Origin: Ophioderma brevispina
Lineage: Eukaryota; Echinodermata; Ophiuroidea; Amphilepidida; Ophiodermatidae
Direction: 5' to 3'
DNA length: 64,000 nt
NCBI GenBank assembly: GCA_023653785.1
Contig: JAMKCH010012582.1
Coordinates: forward strand, 62,001-126,000
Shown here: positions 3,973 through 53,272 of the stretch, one piece after another
Numbering within the stretch: position 1 is the first letter of the stretch
Layout of the letters: every line of letters starts with the position of its first letter
Translations under genes and position numbers: made by a program
The notes under the pieces: generated by a model
What the model was told of the DNA's origin: nothing
The model's input: only the letters and a program-made list of their open reading frames with translations
Database searches by the model: none

Positions 3973-4065
<93 letters not shown>

Positions 4066-16200: not shown

Positions 16201-16227
16201 GCCGTTGCGGTATGTGAATGGGGTCAA

Positions 16228-16665
16228 AGGGTCACAGGGGGTCACAAGGTCACAGGGGGGAACAAAGGTCACATGAGGTTGAGGTCACCAAGGTCAATGG
16301 GTCACCGAGGTCACATGGGGTCACCAAGGTCACAAATGAGTGGTCACCGAGGGTCACAAGGTCACATGAGGTCACCCATGGCACCATGGTCACATGAGGT
16401 CACCATGGTCACTGAGGTCACATGGTCACATGAGGTCACCATGAGTCACATGAGGTCACCCTGTCACATGAGGTCACCATGTCACATGAGGTCACACATG
16501 GTCACATGAGGTCACCATGGCACATGAGGTCACCAAGGTCGGATGAGGTCACCAAGGTCGCATGGGGTCACAAGGTCACACAAAGTCACCAAGGATCACG
16601 AAGTCACAAAGGTTACACAAAGTCACCAAGATCACACAAGGACACAAAGGTCACAGGAGTTCACC
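16228..16665 (+). repeat. GGTCAC minisatellite (29 GGTCAC motifs)
   Basis: An irregular tandem array is built from words such as CATGAGGTCACC and ATGGTCACATGAGG. I count 29 exact GGTCAC motifs over about 440 bp, many in the form AGGTCA. Spacing is variable, mostly about 10-20 bp. It is continuously open in several frames only because the unit lacks stops. AGGTCA is the nuclear-receptor half-site consensus, but the array is most simply a minisatellite; any regulatory role is inference. Confidence 0.85.
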
Positions 16666-16679
16666 CTTCCCTCGCCGAC

Positions 16680-17036
16680 GCACCACACCGTCCACGACGC
16701 ACCCCTACCTAGACCCACCGCGACGCACAGCACCCGACCCATTCCTGAGACACCACACCCCTCCCGACGCACCCCACATCGCCACGAACACTCCACGACC
16801 TCCCAACACCCCACCCTGCTCCGCCCCAACACCCCACCCTGCTCCTCCCCAACACCCCACCTACCCCCTCCCAACAACCCACCCTGTCCCCTCCCCAAAA
16901 CCCCACCCGTCCCCCTCCCCAACACCACACACTTCCCACTCCCCAACACCCCACCTTTTTTCCCCCCCCCAAACCCACCTTCCCCCTCCCCAACACCCAT
17001 CTTCCCCTCCCAACCCCACCCTTCCCCCTCTATATG
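16680..17036 (+). repeat. C-rich tandem tract (CCCCAACACCCCACC-like units)
   Basis: The plus strand is almost G-free, with repeated 'ccccaacaccccacc' and 'ccctccccaac' words. The minus strand carries many runs of three or more G separated by short spacers, so it is predicted to be G-quadruplex-prone. Long Pro-rich (plus) and Gly-rich (minus) frames are by-products of composition. It directly follows the GGTCAC array. Confidence 0.85.
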
Positions 17037-43030: not shown

Positions 43031-44573
43031 AAAAACCAACTTTGCCTTGTGCTAGAGAAGGCTAATAACCTATCCCATGTTGCCATGCAACTACACCAAC
43101 TTTGCCTTGTGCTATGAGAAGGCTAATAACCTATCCCATGTTGCAATGCATAAAAACAACCAACTTTGCCTTGTGCTAGAGGAGACTAATACAACCTATC
43201 CATGTTGCAATGCCCTAAACCAACTTTGCCTTGTTGCTAGAAGGCTAATAACCTATCCCATGTTGCAATGCACTAAACCAACTCTGCCTTGGTGCTAGAG
43301 GCTAATACCCCTATCCCATGTTGTCAATCACTTAACCAACTTTGCCTTGTGCTATAGAGGCTAATAACCTTCCCATGTTGCAATGCACTAACCAACTTTG
43401 CCTTGTGCTAGAGAAGGCTAATAACCTATCCCATGTTGCCATGCACTAAACCAACTTTGCCTTGTGCTATAGGAGGCTAATAACCTACCCCATGTTTCAA
43501 TGCACTAAACCAACTTTGCCTTGTGCTACGGAGGCTATACCTATCCGGTTGCAATCAGCTACACTAACTTTGGCCTTGTGCTAGGAGGCGAATAACCTAT
43601 CCCATGTTGCAATGCCCTAACAAAACCAACCTTTGCCTGTGCTAGAGGAGCTAATAAACTATCCCATGTTGCAATGCACCAAACTAACTTTGCCTTGTGC
43701 TAGAAGAGGCTAATAACCTATCCCATGTTGCAATCCACTAAACCAACTTTGCCTTGTGCTAGGAGGCTAATAACCTATCCCTGTTGCAAAGATGCCACTA
43801 AACCAACTTTGCCGTGTGCTCGCTAGAGGAGTCTAATACCTATCCCATGTTGCATGCACTAAACCAACTTTGCCTTGTGCTAGATGAGGCTAATAACCTA
43901 TCGCCATTTTGCAAGCACTAAACCTACTTGTCCCTGTGCTAGGGAGCTAATAAAACCTATCCATGTTGCAATGCACTAACCAACTCTGCATTGTGCTGAG
44001 AGGCGAATCACCTATCCCATTTTTGCAATGCACTTAAACAACTTTGGCCTTGGCTAGAGGAGGCTAATAACCTATCCCATGGTTTGCAATGCCTAACCAA
44101 CTTGCCTGTGCTAGAGCTAATAACCCGTATCCCATGTTTCAATGCACTAAACCAACTTTGCCTTGTGCTAGAGGAGGCTAAAAACCTATCCCATGTTGCA
44201 ATGCTCTAAACCAACTTTGCCTTGTGATAGAGGAGGCTAATAACCTATACCATGTTGCAATGCACTAAAAACCAACTTTGCCCTGTGCTAGAGGAGGCTA
44301 ATAACCTATACCATGTTGCAATGCACTAAACCAACTTTGCCTTTTGCTAGAGGAGGCTAATAACATATACCTCCCCCCCACCATGTTGCAATGCACTAAA
44401 CCAACTTGCCTTGTGCTAGAGGAGGCTAATAACCTATCCCATGTTGCAATGCACTAAACAACTTTGCCTTGTGCTAGAGGAGACTAATAACCTATCCCAT
44501 GTTGCATTGCACTAAACCAACTTTGCCTTGTGCTAGGAGGCTAATAACCTATCCCATGTTGCAATGGGCTTTA
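43031..44573 (+). repeat. 58-bp satellite (sat1), left block, about 27 units
   Basis: The consensus unit reads AACCAACTTTGCCTTGTGCT, AGAGGAGGCTAATAACCTAT, CCCATGTTGCAATGCACT (58 bp, written here in three parts). Units vary by substitutions and by many 1-2 nt indels, often in homopolymers. The array stops inside a unit at '...gttgcaatg', where the retrotransposon begins. It resumes on the other side at 48186. There are no spacers, so it is not CRISPR-like. Confidence 0.95.
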
Positions 44574-45988
44574 TTACTATTTATAAGGTTAAAATCATCC
44601 GCATATGGGGTTGTTATAATTTTTATTCCCATCTAGGTTAAAGCCGTGCACTGTACGTATATCTCGAGGTATTCGAGGATGGGGTTAAAGCACATCAAGA
44701 ATATAATGGGTGACAGTGGGTCACCTTGAAATGTCCCCCTTTTAAAATCGAATCTCTGAGAATGGGTCCACCCTGTAACCACGGACTGAGGCCCTTAAGA
44801 CGGGAATAGAGTATTTCAACATAACGGATGACATTAGCCGGTAATTTAAAACGTTCATAGAATGATATATAAGTGAATGACTGACACTGCCAAAAGCGTC
44901 GGCTAAATCAAAAAAAGTAACATGTAAAGTCTTTTTCTTGATTTTGAAAATGATATGGCCTCCTGAAGGAGTTGATTATGCTCTATACAACCATTTATTC
45001 CTTTGAGGAATGCCTTTGAATATTTGGATTAATAAACCCGTTTTTTGTCAGATATTCCCCCGTCCTGTCCGCGAGGACCTGGTGGAATAGTTTGCTCACG
45101 CAGGACGTCAGGGAGATCATCCTGAAGTAATCTGGTTTATCAGTATCCCCCCCCCCCCTTTTTATAAATCAGAACGACCTTGGACTCAGACCAGGATTTT
45201 GGAGGGTTTTGGCTCACATAAGAGCATTTTAGTAAACAAGGTGGCCATAAAATGATGAGTTGAAGGAAGGTTTTTCAGGAGAACCATATAGAAGACCATC
45301 ATTACCAGGACCGAAGTGGCTTTTTTTTGTTTCAGAATACACTGTATGTGTAGGTTTAATATTAGCATACAAACTAGTTTGACAGTCATTTGGAACAGCA
45401 ACGTAGGGAAACCAACTTAGCTGGGCAATATCTATGTTTACTTGGTTGGAATATTTGTTTTGAAAATAAATGTCTGCCGATTCCTTGGAAAAGGTAGGAA
45501 CTGGACACTGCTTTCCGAACGTACCCTGGGTAATATGCTTAGAGTAATCCCCAGAAGTCTGACCGGTATTTTTTTTTCATGATGAACTTGAGATTTTTTG
45601 TCGCTATCTTTTTCGTTTCTTTTATTAGAAATGGACACGGTTCTAACAGCCTGACGAAACAGTTGTTTATCCTCAGTCGGTTCCATTCTGGAAAATGCTT
45701 TCTTCCGCTTTCTTTCTTCCGCAGAGGGCATTTTTTTGTGCGTCTGAATTAAAGTTTTTAGTTCATGGGAAATATACTTTTCAGCATGACTGTTCTTTAA
45801 CGAGTCCTGATTGTCGTTAAGTATGATATTAGTGGGTTTCAGAAAGTTTCCAGCAGCTTGAGCTGGACTAACATTCCACAACCGAGGTCAAACTGGTCGG
45901 ACTAAGATCCTGCTAATCACGAATCATGATTTCCACATTCGTTATTACTAACATTGGGAATCGTACATGCAGTCCTACTGCTTGCCAT
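44574..45988 (-). pseudogene. RLE-type LINE ORF, 5' part: N-terminal region and RT motifs A-C (frameshifted)
   Basis: The likely start is ATG at 45988 (minus; context 'tccatggcaag', protein 'MASSRTACTIPNVSNNE'). A Lys/Glu-rich N-terminal region of about 200 codons follows (45438-45881). The RT palm comes next: 'KPDYFRMISLTSCVSKLFHQ' near 45060-45150, motif A 'FFDLADAFGSV' at about 44889-44921, motif B 'QGDPLSPIIF' at 44698-44732 and motif C 'PYADDFNLI' at 44582-44606. All three catalytic Asp positions are intact. The frame is broken by several single-base shifts. No AP-endonuclease domain is seen before the RT, as expected for elements that use a C-terminal restriction-like endonuclease. It breaks off a few codons after YADD, at the satellite junction. 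Confidence 0.75.
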
Positions 45989-46440
45989 GGATAAAATATA
46001 ATATAAATGGCAGTAACTATACCATTATACCCGCCGTCATTGTTTACGGACTAGTTGAGAGCGATCTAGATGAATTACCGTACAAAACAGTTTACTTTAA
46101 TGCAGTCAGCTGTGACAACAGCCTTGTGAATAGAGAATATTCTTCTACTCTATGCAATAGATAACGACGGATTTATGAGTGTCTATTTCCGTGATCATAC
46201 ACAGTACCATACAATTTAAAAGTACGCCAAGAAGTGATGCCAGAGCTAGATGAAAAACGCCCAGTTTGATGTCTGGGTTTCAATTATGGTGGAGAGAACT
46301 TTTTACACAGACGAAGATTTAAATTATGATGATTTTATTGAGTATCGATGAAGACAAATGTCAATAAAGCTTACCAATTAGTCAGCTACACGTATTAATT
46401 ATGATATGGCGTAGAAAATAAAGTACAAAAAACAAACTGA
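45989..46440 (-). other. Probable 5' UTR of the inverted LINE part
   Basis: This is sequence upstream of the presumed ATG on the minus strand, up to the inversion joint, which I place near 46420-46480. A 65-codon plus frame (45967-46164) overlaps it but matches nothing I know. The joint is placed where the plus-strand post-RT protein similarity starts; the exact base is not resolved. Confidence 0.4.
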
Positions 46441-47960
46441 AAAACACACCGTAAGATATTCACATAAAAATCATAATTAGCTCCAGGTCAAACTCACAGT
46501 ATGGGTCTCTCACATTGAAACCAGGTAAATGCCTCTCATTTCTTTGTGTAGTGGTGTCCCGAGGATTGTCGAATATAATATAGGGTTATTCGGATTATTC
46601 CGTTAAAGAGGACCCCCAACGTTTTTTGGGATCTCTTATTACTCATTCTGGTAGCCAAGTGATATTGTATATATGATTTACTCCCTAATTTTGAATCAAG
46701 TCCTTGTTAACATTGATCAATCTCCTGTCGTAATGAGTTTAAATACTCGCAATGTACGGTAGATACTGTTTGCCCATCCATTCTTTTTTGTCTTACGGTC
46801 CACGAGATTACTAAGACAATTTATCTCTTCTAGATTGAATGTTATATTATTAAGATGGTTGCATTCCTAAACGTGGTGCTAATATAGCGCTTGTCCATAT
46901 TGAAAAATGGTCTTGATTTCCACAGTTTCGGATATTTATCATGCTCTCATGTTTAGCGTATGTAGAACCCGGTGGTTTGGGCTCCTCAACTTACCAACAA
47001 GGCCCTGGAGTTAAACCTCCAAAAGAGAATCAGCTTGGAGTAGGAAACTCCACAATTGTGGCTTGCGATCATGTCCCGCAAATCTTTTAGGATTCCGACC
47101 AACCAACTGTCTGGAAAATACCAAAACCAAGATAAAAGAACCCTAAAGAAAGATTCTTGTGACTATTGAAGTCGTAGTAGAGCCACTCATTACACAGGGT
47201 GACACAGCAAAATTACTTCTTGAAACTGAGAATAATCTAACATGGAAATCTATTATGTAACTGGCTTCCTGAGGGTGTTCTTAAGTTTGCAATTAACGCT
47301 GCAATCGACAGCCTCCCCACATTTGCTAATATTTATACATGGGGGAAAACGTTTAAGTAGCAACTGCCCCCTTGTTCCAAAAAGGGTTCACTCTTCTTTT
47401 CTGCACTTCTTCAATCACTGTACCAGATTCTTGACCGATACCTTTGGCGGCATAATAACATCATCCGCATTTTGATCTCTGGCTTTTGAAGATAGCAAAT
47501 TTTTTAAAGACAACGGTTCCTTGATCACTCCTGTGTAGCAGGTACCTCATTGGCGGGGAAGTGCCTCTGATATCATTCCGACACTCACCAACCAGATATT
47601 GGTTTGTACTTTCCCCGCTCAACAAAAAGTATTTTATTTGAACTTACAGTACCATTTGAGACAAATGTTTATAAAGCTAACACACTAATACCAGACCAGA
47701 TATTCTGCCCTAGTTGGAATATCTCGGACGCTGGTTAATGTCCCTGGTCGCCTTGCAAGAGGATCAGGGTCTATTACAAAAACTAACAAGACGCGTCTAA
47801 GAGGTTTCCTCCGTACGCTTAACGATCCATTTAAATAACAGCTCTCAGAAAACAGTATCTCCAAAAAAGCCTTGGCTTCTTCTTTTCCATTTTCCCAAGC
47901 AGACACGGCGTGAATGGAACTTATCTACCCCATTTATTAGGCCTTTGGCAGCATGCCGTC
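46440..47960 (+). pseudogene. RLE-type LINE ORF, 3' part: post-RT, zinc knuckle, restriction-like endonuclease
   Basis: The protein order after YADD is recognisable across frameshifts. A 'LKPGKC' block lies near 46520, 'EDPQRFLGSLITHSG' at 46608-46652, 'YGRYCLPIHSF' near 46760, 'LTVHEITKT' at 46792-46818, and 'LTWKSIM' then 'FAINAAIDSLPTFANIYTWG' at 47236-47345. A degenerate CCHC knuckle follows, 'NCPLVPKR...HFFNHC', at 47362-47420, with its second Cys lost in the current frame. The restriction-like endonuclease signature 'QPDIGLYFPRSTK' then 'FELTVPFE' spans 47589-47660 (PD-x14-E). Further 'YSALVGISRTL' and 'KTRLRGFLR' blocks lie to about 47830. This order (RT, CCHC, RLE) defines the R2/R4/NeSL/CRE group; which clade cannot be settled by eye. 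Confidence 0.75.
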
Positions 47961-48185
47961 GTATTGTTTCCCTCGGCTAGTTTGGCTTTTTAAAAAGTAT
48001 ATAATTTTTAACGTGTATTGTTTTTTTTTTAATTCAAATTTTATCTTTTACTGTATTAACTACCCTGCCTGGTGGATCAGTATCAAGGCCCCATTTTTCT
48101 TTGGTTTTAGAGTTTACACTTTTTTTATTTTTAATATTTTTAAAAAACAAAAAAAAAATCTTCATATTATTGACTGAATAAAGAT

Positions 48186-51100
48186 GATTTAATAATATCC
48201 CATGTTGCAAAGCACTAAACCAACTTGCCTTGTGCTAGAGGAGACTAATAACCTATCCCATGTTTGGCAAAGCCACTAAAAAAACCAACTTTGCCTTGAT
48301 GCTAGAGTAGTGCTAATAACCTTCCTCCCCATGTTTCAATGCACTAAACCAACTGTGCCTTGTGCTAGAAAAGGCAATACCCGATCCATGTTGCAATGCA
48401 CTAAACCAACTTTGCCTTGTGATAGAGGAGGCTAATAACCTATCCATTTGCTTTGCAATGCAACTAAACCAACATTGCCTTGTGCTAGAGGAGACTAATA
48501 ACCTATCCCATGTTGCAATGCTCTAAACCAACTTTGCCTTTTGCTAGAGGAGGCTAATAACCTATACCATGTTTAAATGCACTAAACCAACTTGCCTTGT
48601 GCTAGAGGAGACTAATAACCTATCCCATGTTGCAATGCTCTAAACCAACTTTGCCTTGTTCTAGGAGGCTAATAACCTATCCCTTGTTGCAATGCACTAA
48701 ACCAACTTTGTCTTGTGCTAGAGGAGGCTCATAACCTATCCCATGTTGCAATGCACTAAACTAACTTTGCCTGGGTAGGAGGCTAATAACCTATCCCCTG
48801 TTGCAAACATGCACAAACCTAACTTGTGCCTTGTGCTAGGATGGCTATCACCTATCCGATGTTGCAATGCACTAACCACTTTGCCTTGTTGCTAAAGTAG
48901 GCTAATACCTATCCCTGTGGCAATCCCTAAACCACTTGCCTTGTGATAGAGGAGTCTATAACCTATCCCATGTTGCAATGCACTAAACCAACTTTGCCTT
49001 GTGCAAATGAGGCTAGAACCTATCCCATGTTGCAAGGCACTAAACCACTTTTGCCTTGTGCTAGAGGAGACTAATAACCTATCCCATGTTCCAATGCACT
49101 AAACCAACTTTGCCTTGTGCTAGAAGAGGCTAATAACCTATCCAATGTTGCAATGCCAACTAAACCAACTTGCCTTTGCTAGAGGGGCTTAATAACCTAT
49201 CCATGTTGCAATGCATAAACCAACTGCCTTGTGCTAGAGGGGGCTAATAACCTATCCCATGTCGCAATGCACTAACCGAACTTGCCTTGTGCAGGAGGCT
49301 AATAACTATCCGAGTTGCATGCACTAAACAACTTTGCCTTGTGCTAAAGGAGGGCCTAATAACCTATCCCATGTTTCAATGCACTAAACCAACTTTGCCT
49401 TGGTGATAGAGGAGGCTAAGAACCTATCCCATGTTGCAATGCCCTAAACCAACTTTGCCTTGTGATAAAGGAGGTGGCTAATAACCTATCCCATGTTTCA
49501 ATGCACTAAACCAACTTCTGCCTTGTGCTAGAGGAGACTAATAACCTATCCCATGTTGCCATGCACAAACCACTTTGCCTGTGCTAGAGGAGGCTAATAA
49601 CCTATCCCATGTTGCCATGCACTAAACCAACTATTTGCCCTGTGCTAGAGGAGGCTAAAAACCTATCCCATGTTGCAAGGCAACTAAACCAACTGGCCTG
49701 TGCTAGAGGAGGCTAATAACCTATCCCATGTTGCAATGCACCAAACTTTGCCTTGTGCTAGGAGGCTAATAACCTTATCCCATGTTGCAACTGCATAAAC
49801 CAAATTTTGCCTGTGCTAAAGGAGGCTAATAACCTATCCAATGTTGCAATGCACTAAAACTAAACTTTGCTTGTTGTGGAGGCTAATAACCTTTATACAA
49901 TGTTGCAATGCAGTAAACCAACTTTGCCTGGGATGAGGAGGTAATAACCTATCCCATGTGCAATGCACTAAACAACTTTGCCTTGTGCTATAGGAGGCTA
50001 ATAACCTATCACATGTTCATGCACTAAAACCAACATTGCCTTGTGCTAGAGGAGACTAATAACCTATCCCATGTGGCAATCCACTAAACAACTTTCCTTG
50101 TGCTATTTTTTTTTTTTTTTTTTTTTTTGAGGAGGCTAATAACCTATCCCATGTTGCAATGCTCTAAACCCAACTTGCCTTGTGCTAGAGGAGGCTAATA
50201 ACCTAACCCATGTTGCAATGCACTAAACTTTGCCTTGTGCTAGAAGAGGCTAATAACCTATCCATGGTGCCAATGCACTAAACCATACTTTGCCTGTGCT
50301 AGAGGAGGCTAAAAACCTATCCCATGTTGCAATGCACTAAACCAACTTTGCCTTGTGCTAAGGAGGCTAATAACATATACCATGTTGCAATGCACGAAAA
50401 ACCAACTTGCCTTGGCTAGAGGGGCTACAACCTACCCCATGTTTCAATGCACTAAACCAACTTTGCATTGTGCTAGGAGCGAATAACCTATCCCATGTTG
50501 CATTGCACTAAACCAACTTTGCCTTGTGATAGAGGAGGCTAATAACCTATTCCCATGTGCAATGCACTAAACCAACTTTGCCTTTTGCTAGAGGAGGCTA
50601 ATAACCTATCCATGTTTCAATGCACTAAACCAACTCTTGCATTGTGCTAGAGGAGATAATAACCTATCCCATGTGCAATGCAATAAACCAACTTTGCCTT
50701 GTGCTAGAAGGGGCTTATAACCTATCCCATGTTGCAATGCACTAAACCAACTTTGCTTTGTGCTAGAGGAGGCTAACACCTATCCCATGTTGCCATGCAC
50801 TAACTAACTTTGCCTTGTGCTAGAGAAGGCTAATAACCTATCCCATGTGGCAATGCACTAAACAAACTTGCCTTGTGATAAAGGAGGCTAATTAACATAT
50901 CCCATGTTGCAATGCTCTAAACCAACTTTGCCTTGTGATAGAGGAGGCTAATAACCTAACCCATGTTGCAAGCACTAACCAACTTTGCTTGTGCTAAAGG
51001 AGGCTAATAACCTATCCAATGTTGCAATGCCACCTAAACCAACTTTGCCTGGTGTTAGAGGAGGCTAATAACCTATCCCATTTTGCAATCCACTCAAACC

Positions 51101-53272
51101 AACTTTGCCTGTGCTAGGGAGGCTACTAACCTATCCCATGTTGCAATGCACTTAACCAACTTTGCCTTTTGCTAGAGGTGGCTAATAACCTATCCCATGG
51201 TGCAATGCACTAAACAAATTTGCCTTGTGCTAGAGGAGGCTAATAACCTATTCCCATGTGCAATGCACTAAACTTTGCCTTGTGCTAGAAGAGGCTAAAA
51301 ACCTATCCCATGTTGCAAAGCACTAAACCAACTTTGCCTGTGCTAGAGGAGGTAATAACCTATCCCATGTTCCAATGCCAAGAAACTTTGCCTTGTGCTA
51401 GGAGGCTAAAACCCCATCCAGTTGCAATGCACTAAACCAACGTTGCCTTGTGATAGAGAGGCTAGAACCCATCCCATGTTGCAATGCACTAAACCAACTT
51501 TGCATTGTGCTAAAGGAGGCTAAAACCTATCCATGTTGCAAGCACTAAACCAACTTTGCCGTGTAGAGGAGGCTACTAACCTATCCCATGTTGCAATGCA
51601 ATAAACCAACTTTGCCTTGTGCTAGAAGAGGCTAATAACCTATCCTATGTTGCAATGCACTAAACCAACTTGGCCTTGTGCTAGGAGGCGAATAACCTAT
51701 CCCATGTTGCAATGAAATAAACCAACTTTGCCTTTTGCTAGAGGAGGCTAATAACCTATACCATGTTGCAATGCACTAAATACCAACTTTGCTTGTGCAT
51801 AAAGGAGGCTAATAACCTATCCCATGTTTCAATGCACTAAACCAACTTTGCATTGTGCTAGAGGAGGCTTAATAACTATCCCATGGTTGCAATGCAAACT
51901 AAACCAAATTTGCCTTGTGCTAGAGTGCGGCTAATAACCTATCCCAGTGGCAATGACACTAAACCACGTGGACTTGTGCTAGAGGAGGCTATAACCGTAT
52001 CCCGTGGTGCAAGGCACTAAACCATAACTTGCTTGTGCTAGCGAGGCTATAACCTTATCCATGTTGCAATGCACTAAAACCAACATTGCCTTGTGCTAGA
52101 GGAGACTAATAACCTATCCCATGTTGCACTGCCACTAAACCAACTGTGCCTGGTGCTCAGAGGAGGCATAATAATATCCCATGTTGCAAAGCACTAAACC
52201 AACTTTGCATTGTGCTAGATGAGCTATAACCTACCAATGTTGCAATTGTCACTAAACCCCAACGTGCCTTGATGCTAGAGGAGGCTAATAACCTATCCCA
52301 TGTTGCAATGCACTAAACCAAATTTGCCTTGTGCTAAAGGAGGCTAAGAACCTATCCATTGTGAAGGCACTAACCAACTTTGCCTTGGGCTAGAGGAGGC
52401 TAATAAACATAGTCCCATGTTGCAATGCACTAACCAACTTTGCCTGTGTAAAGGAGGTAATAACCTATTACCATGTTGCAATGCACTAAACAACTTTGCC
52501 TTGTGCTAGAAGGAGGCTAATAAAACTATCACATGTTATTGCCAATGCACTACCAACTTTGCCTTGTGCTAGGAGGAGGCTAATAACCTATCCAGTGTTG
52601 CAATGCACTAAACCAATTTGCCTTGGGCTAGGAGGCTAATAAACATGATAAATGTGCAAGCACTAAACCAACTTTGCCTTTTGCTAGAGGAGGCTAATAA
52701 CCTATCCCTTGTTGCATTGCACTAACCAACTTTGCCTTTTGCTAGAGGAGGCTAATAACCTACCCATGTTGCAAAGCATAAACCAACTTTGCCTTGTGCT
52801 AGAAGAGGCTAATAACCTATCCCTGTTGCAATGCACTAAACAAAGTTGCCCTGTGCTAGAGGAGGCTAATAACCTCCCCATGTTGCAATGCCACTAAACC
52901 AAATTTGCCTTGTGCTAAAGGAGGCTAATAACCTATACCCGGTTTCAATGCACTAAACCAACTTTGCCTTGTGCTAGAGGAGACTAATAACCTATCCCAT
53001 GTTGCAAGGCACTAAACCACTTTGCATTGTGCTAAAGGAGGCTAATACCCTATCCAATGTTGCAATGCACTATAACCACTTGCTTGTGCAAAAGGAGGCT
53101 AATAAACTATCCCATGTTGCAATGCTCTAAACCAACTTTGCCTTGTTCTAGGAGGCTAATAACCTATCCCATGTTGCCACTGCACTTAACCAACTTTGCC
53201 TGTGGCTAGAGGAGGCTAATAAAACCTATCCCATTGTTGCATGCACTAAACCAACTTTGCCGTGTGTAGAGG
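48186..53272 (+). repeat. 58-bp satellite (sat1), right block, about 88 units
   Basis: It has the same unit as 43031-44573 and the same strand. Variation is irregular: almost every unit has 1-3 nt missing or added, and homopolymer shortening is common ('aactttgcc' against 'aacttgcc'). There is one T-run of about 23 nt inside a unit at 50106-50128. No higher-order period is obvious by eye. It ends at 'gtgtgtagaggg', after which unique sequence begins. Frames such as 52709-52897 are repeat translations. Confidence 0.95.

Follow-up and report, generated by a model that had tools for sequence, protein, structure and literature searches.

How does a retroelement come to lie in a genome with its 5' half facing one way and its 3' half the other? 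The question is raised by a 64,000-nucleotide stretch of the ophiuroid Ophioderma brevispina (contig JAMKCH010012582.1, positions 62,001 to 126,000 of the forward strand; hereafter the window), in which a 59-bp satellite is broken by one 3.6-kb insert, at 44569-48189, that is a single copy of a long interspersed nuclear element (LINE). Inversion of the 5' end is a well-known scar of human L1 elements, and twin priming of 5'-inverted L1 insertions was reportedly described by Ostertag and Kazazian in 2001. A first-pass annotation had read the insert as one LINE bearing a restriction-like endonuclease (RLE), with its 5' half inverted by twin priming. In our view an RLE-type, R2-like LINE probably inserted here once, its 5' half being turned around in the process by dual (twin) priming. 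The placement of the insert within the satellite stood, with its boundaries corrected to 44569-46454 for the inverted part and 46459-48189 for the direct part, and the satellite period, by Tandem Repeats Finder (TRF), to 59 bp rather than 58.

A read-through query of the minus-strand half retrieved 169 relatives at E<=1e-3, and the best 120 of these were mapped onto the window by tblastn at the same threshold. Every one of the 283 high-scoring segment pairs (HSPs) falling in the 5' half has minus-strand orientation, and every one of the 44 in the 3' half is on the plus strand; neither half has an HSP of the opposite orientation. The minus-only HSPs and the coordinates of the motifs themselves bear out the earlier placement of reverse transcriptase (RT) motifs A, B and C on the minus strand. 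Within this set of 120, the closest relative, P0012, is 85% identical across 47% of the query, and 28 relatives match both halves inside one protein. Projection of the joint onto 16 relatives gave a median gap of 1 residue (range 1-15), as expected for a break within one codon, and P0012 reads PYADDFNLITSNKVQHQKIIND through the point at which the window switches strand, with other relatives reading similarly. The plus-only HSPs and the single-residue gap agree with the claim that the later parts of the protein follow on the plus strand with no domain duplicated or missing.

The genome containing the window (2.51 Gb, 65,844 contigs) was then searched at the DNA level for uninverted copies, as the first-pass annotation had proposed, using probes from the 5' half (47 matches; best 40 of 75 candidates scored), the 3' half (45 matches; 40 of 167) and the 3' end (40 matches; 40 of 116); the counts that follow describe best-scoring copies and are no census. 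Among 20 loci examined in DNA, 18 are collinear in both halves, L027, which runs into a contig end, has the 5' half alone, and L025 is rearranged. L010, L015, L016 and L037 are likewise collinear, bringing the DNA-checked collinear copies to 22, and 10 further contigs are collinear by match coordinates alone (C22687, C8323, C26270, C31607, C32705, C28419, C64659, C33754, C53895 and C58639). Copies seen with both parts therefore number 34, comprising 32 collinear copies and two rearranged ones, the window copy and L025. As the 32 collinear copies carry both halves, the halves belong to one family and not to two elements. L014, the sole copy showing only the 3' part that was checked for an inverted remnant, has none in 1.5 kb of upstream sequence.

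The uninverted copies also fix the breakpoint. In L010, no base separates the two that correspond to window positions 44569 and 46459 (AATAAAG^TTC), and the majority sequence across the break is AATAAAGTTCAACATCAGAAAATC in 19 aligned rows (18 collinear copies and L025, whose first block spans the break). The inverted part of the window copy ends in AATAAAG (44569), followed by GG and then the flank, and the direct part begins with TTCACAT (46459), preceded by GATA and the end of the 5' untranslated region (UTR; 46454). Adjacency of the break bases in uninverted copies means that zero element bases were lost at the break, and, as self-comparison found no internal match within the insert, the inverted part is not a fold-back duplicate of the direct part. 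The structure of the copy, its breakpoint and the absence of loss can be read directly from the alignments, as can the collinearity of all other both-part copies except one. With 32 collinear copies and the break bases adjacent in L010, the reading of one element with its 5' half inverted is upheld.

The inverted part had been thought to reach the start of the open reading frame (ORF) and the 5' UTR, and the uninverted copies indeed place 46417-46454 in the inverted 5' UTR; this overturned an assignment in which the codons NKVQ near 46417 were part of the direct segment and a 34-nt insert came after them. The copy, suggested earlier to be possibly full length, is nearly so, with ~20-65 bp of family sequence missing from its 5' end; eight near-full-length copies, compared pairwise, have common sequence extending 17-66 nt further 5'. 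Its ORF is interrupted by many frameshifts and stops, as in a decayed copy. A 70-aa plus-strand ORF at 45952-46164 has no Pfam match, lies antisense to the ORF start and 5' UTR, and was taken as chance.

Profile and fold matches to R2 mark the family as an RLE-type, R2-like LINE. A profile built from an alignment of 8 relatives, with which the proposed check against R2 was carried out, matched R2Tg with E=6.7e-52 over ~640 profile positions spanning the RT, the zinc knuckle and the RLE, and also matched 9nl2 through the RLE. Against the R2Bm chains (8gh6, 8ibw) the match stops ahead of the RLE, and against human L1 it covers the RT only (E=1.8e-11); a short RLE-only query found no match. R2 also came out best in a separate search bearing on the RT, and PF00078 scored above cut-off in 7 relatives and below it in the short pieces of the window. 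The knuckle, C-x2-C-x8-H-x4-C, is invariant in 8 relatives, and PD-x12-14-E is present in all 6 relatives reaching that far. The invariant knuckle and the profile and fold matches sustain the original assignment to the RLE type, which had been made on PD-x14-E and a CCHC knuckle. The predicted model of relative P0091 has a mean predicted local distance difference test score of 66 (RLE blocks mostly 77-91, two at 62), and the 7 best Protein Data Bank matches in a fold search with it were all R2 (E 9.5e-22 to 3.2e-17); with low template modelling scores of 0.36-0.41 on the query and a root-mean-square deviation near 12-13 A, these matches support the domain order and not the fine geometry.

No N-terminal zinc finger or Myb domain was found in Pfam scans of 7 relatives, the N-terminal region being included only in P0001 and P0021, or by eye in 16 N-terminal stretches. 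The fixed 28S ribosomal DNA (rDNA) insertion of the R2 clade was not encountered among 19 copies, which differ in their flanks, or in the window copy, which lies in a satellite; 28S itself was not searched. By eye, the predicted relatives P0002, P0004, P0007, P0017, P0020, P0021 and P0029 open with a hydrophobic segment resembling a signal peptide, and a comparable segment occurs in family copies at the place corresponding to window ~45955-46060 (minus strand). Such a start is unusual for a LINE protein and may be an effect of gene prediction.

The flanks differ among 19 copies, and the family is not site-specific. Targeting of the satellite, which the first-pass annotation had raised, was contradicted: the 59-bp satellite was found in the 300 bp flanking each side in 0 of 19 other copies, whose flanks gave satellite-match scores of 18-44 compared with 232 and 283 for the window flanks (scored over stretches of other lengths). 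Left of the window copy the satellite stops at monomer phase 55; on the right it restarts at phase 31, leaving a 25-bp overlap that in a tandem array could equally be a 25-bp duplication or a 34-bp deletion and proves neither. Of the 19 copies, 17 have as their 3' end a variant of AATAAAGATGATT, with AT-rich sequence behind it (L022 is without that end and L019 has diverged). The window copy has this usual terminus with no poly(A) behind it, as in uninverted copies, and the satellite's own TAATAA sits at the junction. The 3' ends of L017-L036 mostly show AT-rich sequence, such as TAATAA, straight after GATGATT, for which an AT-rich target preference and a short tail are candidate readings.

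In the mechanism that we favour, two DNA ends at the opened target would each prime one complementary DNA (cDNA). Synthesis from the bottom-strand end would begin at the RNA 3' end and reach TTCA..., giving the direct 3' part, and the top-strand end would copy the remainder from AATAAAG toward the RNA 5' end, stopping ~20-65 nt short of it, to give the inverted 5' part, after which both cDNAs would be joined via the 4-nt filler. Details that we infer are the sequence of events, the part played by the element's RT and the template, which could be one RNA or two RNA pieces. Two features favour dual priming: no more than 2 nt separate the inverted block from the satellite flank, and comparison with the uninverted copies shows a reciprocal break. 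Further support comes from L025, with two inverted blocks, and from the 3' terminus of the window copy, which is the family's usual one. LINE RTs, whether APE-type (apurinic/apyrimidinic endonuclease) or RLE-type, reportedly need no homology to jump from one template end to another (PMC6895275).

Several points weigh against this interpretation. L1 inversions are often rich in microhomology (PMC2912911) and are described with internal deletions (PMC2837659), neither of which is seen in the window copy. At the flank joint, the length of the shared stretch depends on the reference: 6 nt with the majority row of the family (0.4-1.5% by chance), 5 nt with copy L032 (4.6-6.5% by chance) and 4 nt with the window's own direct part, leaving a joint with a filler and no convincing microhomology. 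Two primers and two cDNAs offer the best explanation of the copy, as first proposed, but the annealing hallmark of L1 twin priming is not shown by these 6, 5 or 4 nt. In 18 uninverted copies, no target-site duplication (TSD) scored above the null maximum of 9.5 from 60 mismatched pairs, and three scored above its 95% point (7.0, 7.0 and 7.5 versus 6.5), in a test that placed 3' ends by a simple pattern and in which short duplications could have decayed. As uninverted copies show no clear TSD, a top-strand 3' overhang is putative. The sample, moreover, is only one clean and one complex case, both in decayed copies.

The complex case is L025 (contig C22086, 3311-6480), a second rearranged copy with two consecutive inverted blocks before a direct 3' block (in window coordinates, antisense 45988-46529, antisense 46513-47060 and direct 47051-48133). 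Element order is retained across the blocks, which overlap by ~12 nt, the inner joint falls at a perfect 12-nt palindrome (47050-47061), and the copy terminates in (A)21. This arrangement fits dual priming and one template jump, although rearrangement at a later date or assistance by another LINE may instead be responsible. In L014 (contig C28212, ~1482-1501), the 5' truncation lies 1-2 nt from the inversion breakpoint of the window copy, possibly at an RT stop or an RNA breakage site. Given the ~40 internal 5' ends seen, the chance of a hit within 1 nt of the break is roughly 3% (a rough estimate), and a truncation hotspot at the break is only a lead.

A more specific and tentative proposal, which we regard as possible but doubtful, is that 5' inversions by R2-type RTs follow a distinct route, through broken RNA and end-to-end template jumping. 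The element RNA would break at AAAG^UUC, the bottom-strand primer would copy the 3' piece all the way to its terminus, and the 3' end of the 5' piece would be taken up by the top-strand end through annealing-free template jumping, leaving non-templated bases. Template jumping without homology (PMC6895275), together with the absence of loss and the presence of fillers, points to such a reading with two RNA pieces, which would account for the breakpoint without loss, for GG as filler, for the several blocks of L025 and for the truncation of L014 near the break. The ~12-nt block overlaps of L025, however, are not predicted by a clean RNA cut.

Dual priming during insertion must also be weighed against histories in which the element's RT made no inversion at all. 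Had the element inserted collinearly as usual, a separate DNA break and its repair could afterwards have flipped its first 1886 bp; the small fillers GG and GATA at both joints fit end joining, and weak inverted repeats lie near the joints (44568-44582 with 46356-46370, 80%; 44614-44626 with 46464-46476, 92%). Such an event, however, needs a break within ~2 nt of the element/flank border, for which we roughly estimate <=1 in 1000 for random breaks, and inverted matches within 30 nt of the joints extend to no more than 6 nt, a length also reached by 981 of 2000 random pairs. Inverted repeats were thus rejected as the cause, and later inversion is unlikely. An assembly error that joined two pieces in the wrong orientation might be suspected in a fragmented assembly (65,844 contigs), with a multi-copy element at a satellite-rich locus, but appears improbable, as the ends that are joined have no more sequence in common than chance allows, fillers lie at the joints, and the break is base-for-base reciprocal.

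Other explanations accept a rearranged insertion and differ in how it arose. The RNA could have been inserted in trans by an APE-type LINE, giving an ordinary L1-style twin-primed copy, and both the (A)21 end of the rearranged copy L025 and the 25-bp phase overlap at the window copy speak for this; the family's usual 3' terminus without poly(A), shared with uninverted copies, speaks against it and makes it quite unlikely. Snap-back, in which the 3' end of the cDNA folds back, copies itself and then joins the upstream flank, is how upstream rDNA joined to antisense transgene sequence was interpreted in R2-protein assays (PMC11371274). It duplicates sequence, whereas the inverted and direct parts in the window are different parts of the element with zero overlap, and we hold it very improbable here. 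That two independent truncated insertions of the same family, which is multi-copy and includes truncated copies, came to lie side by side is hardly credible: together the halves make up one element, with nothing missing or repeated between them, and a 5' fragment without its 3' end is unexpected from target-primed reverse transcription.

The features of the locus are collected in Table 1. Elsewhere in the window, the TRF scan showed an unbroken run of 85 T at 3981-4065 and GC-rich minisatellites with periods of 18-74 bp and 23-24 bp at 16220-17027.

Table 1. Layout of the half-inverted LINE copy and its satellite flanks, in window coordinates.
Feature	Position	Strand	Basis or remark
Satellite array, left part	43033..44566	.	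TRF-reported stretch; ends at monomer phase 55
Left copy of 25-bp phase overlap; possible TSD, unprovable in a tandem array	44542..44566	.	
2-nt filler GG, joint of flank and inverted part	44567..44568	.	
Inverted LINE 5' part: 5' UTR, N-terminal region, RT to ~25 nt past the YADD box	44569..46454	-	DNA alignment of copies and protein HSPs
RT motif C (YADD)	44594..44605	-	
RT motif B (FQGDPLSP)	44708..44731	-	
RT motif A (FFDLADAF)	44892..44915	-	
4-nt filler GATA, inversion joint	46455..46458	.	
Direct LINE 3' part: remaining RT/thumb, linker, zinc knuckle, RLE, 3' UTR	46459..48189	+	DNA alignment of copies and protein HSPs
Zinc-knuckle (CCHC) region; second Cys unread in the window's broken frame	47362..47433	+	
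RLE active-site motif PD-x14-E	47592..47642	+	
Family 3' terminus (AATAAAGATGATT, then AT-rich sequence)	48175..48189	+	
Satellite array, restarting at monomer phase 31	48190..53272	.	TRF rows 48282-53272, small breaks

Inversions had been described as little reported for RLE elements, an older class than L1, which is fair for genomic copies as far as we searched but not for R2-protein assays, where antisense 5' junctions are reported (PMC11371274). No report of 5' inversion in genomic copies of RLE LINEs was found in the titles and opening abstracts searched, most subscription journals lying outside this coverage. A term search of the main text of a 2026 survey of animal R2 elements found neither "inversion" nor "inverted" (PMC13188248), and the main text of the paper on BLAG, an element of Blattella, has no word beginning with "inver" (PMC7650587). 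5' inversions have been described as almost confined to human L1, with one case in Nimb-2_DR, and as tied to TSDs of 10-20 bp (PMC4245944). Antisense 5' junctions made with RLE proteins are thus already known, and a non-duplicated, reciprocal inversion in a genomic copy was, as far as we searched, not found described.

The second half of LINE integration has been called very poorly understood (PMC6895275), and top-strand cleavage before completion of the first cDNA has been inferred to be possibly near-exclusive to cases in which L1 mobilizes its own RNA and not RNAs in trans (PMC2912911). The half-inverted R2-like copy speaks for the view that RLE-type integration, too, can open the top strand and employ it as a primer, a point relevant to how the mechanism evolved and to R2-based gene insertion.

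Among known systems, the window copy resembles 5'-inverted L1 in having an inverted 5' part beside the flank and a direct 3' part with a normal 3' end, both from one element. It differs in being RLE-type and not APE-type, in its lack of an internal deletion or convincing microhomology, and in having fillers at both joints, no poly(A) and no provable TSD. With R2 (R2Bm, R2Tg) the family shares the order of RT, zinc knuckle and RLE, a profile match through the RLE to R2Tg and the results of the fold search; unlike R2 it has no fixed target, its 19 other copies having differing flanks. By description only, it may be likened to the HERO clade of RLE elements, with its many non-specific families (PMC4640811), and to BLAG, which is R2-like, non-site-specific and scattered in the genome (PMC7650587). 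A further comparison is with the insertion of transgenes in human cells by avian R2 proteins, in which an RLE-type RT likewise leaves the upstream target joined to antisense element sequence (PMC11371274). The authors of that study, who cite the twin-priming paper, read their junctions as self-copying of the cDNA, a duplication of which the window copy has none, and theirs are assay products whereas ours is a genomic copy; some of the antisense 5' junctions of R2-based gene insertion may be of the same kind as the window copy.

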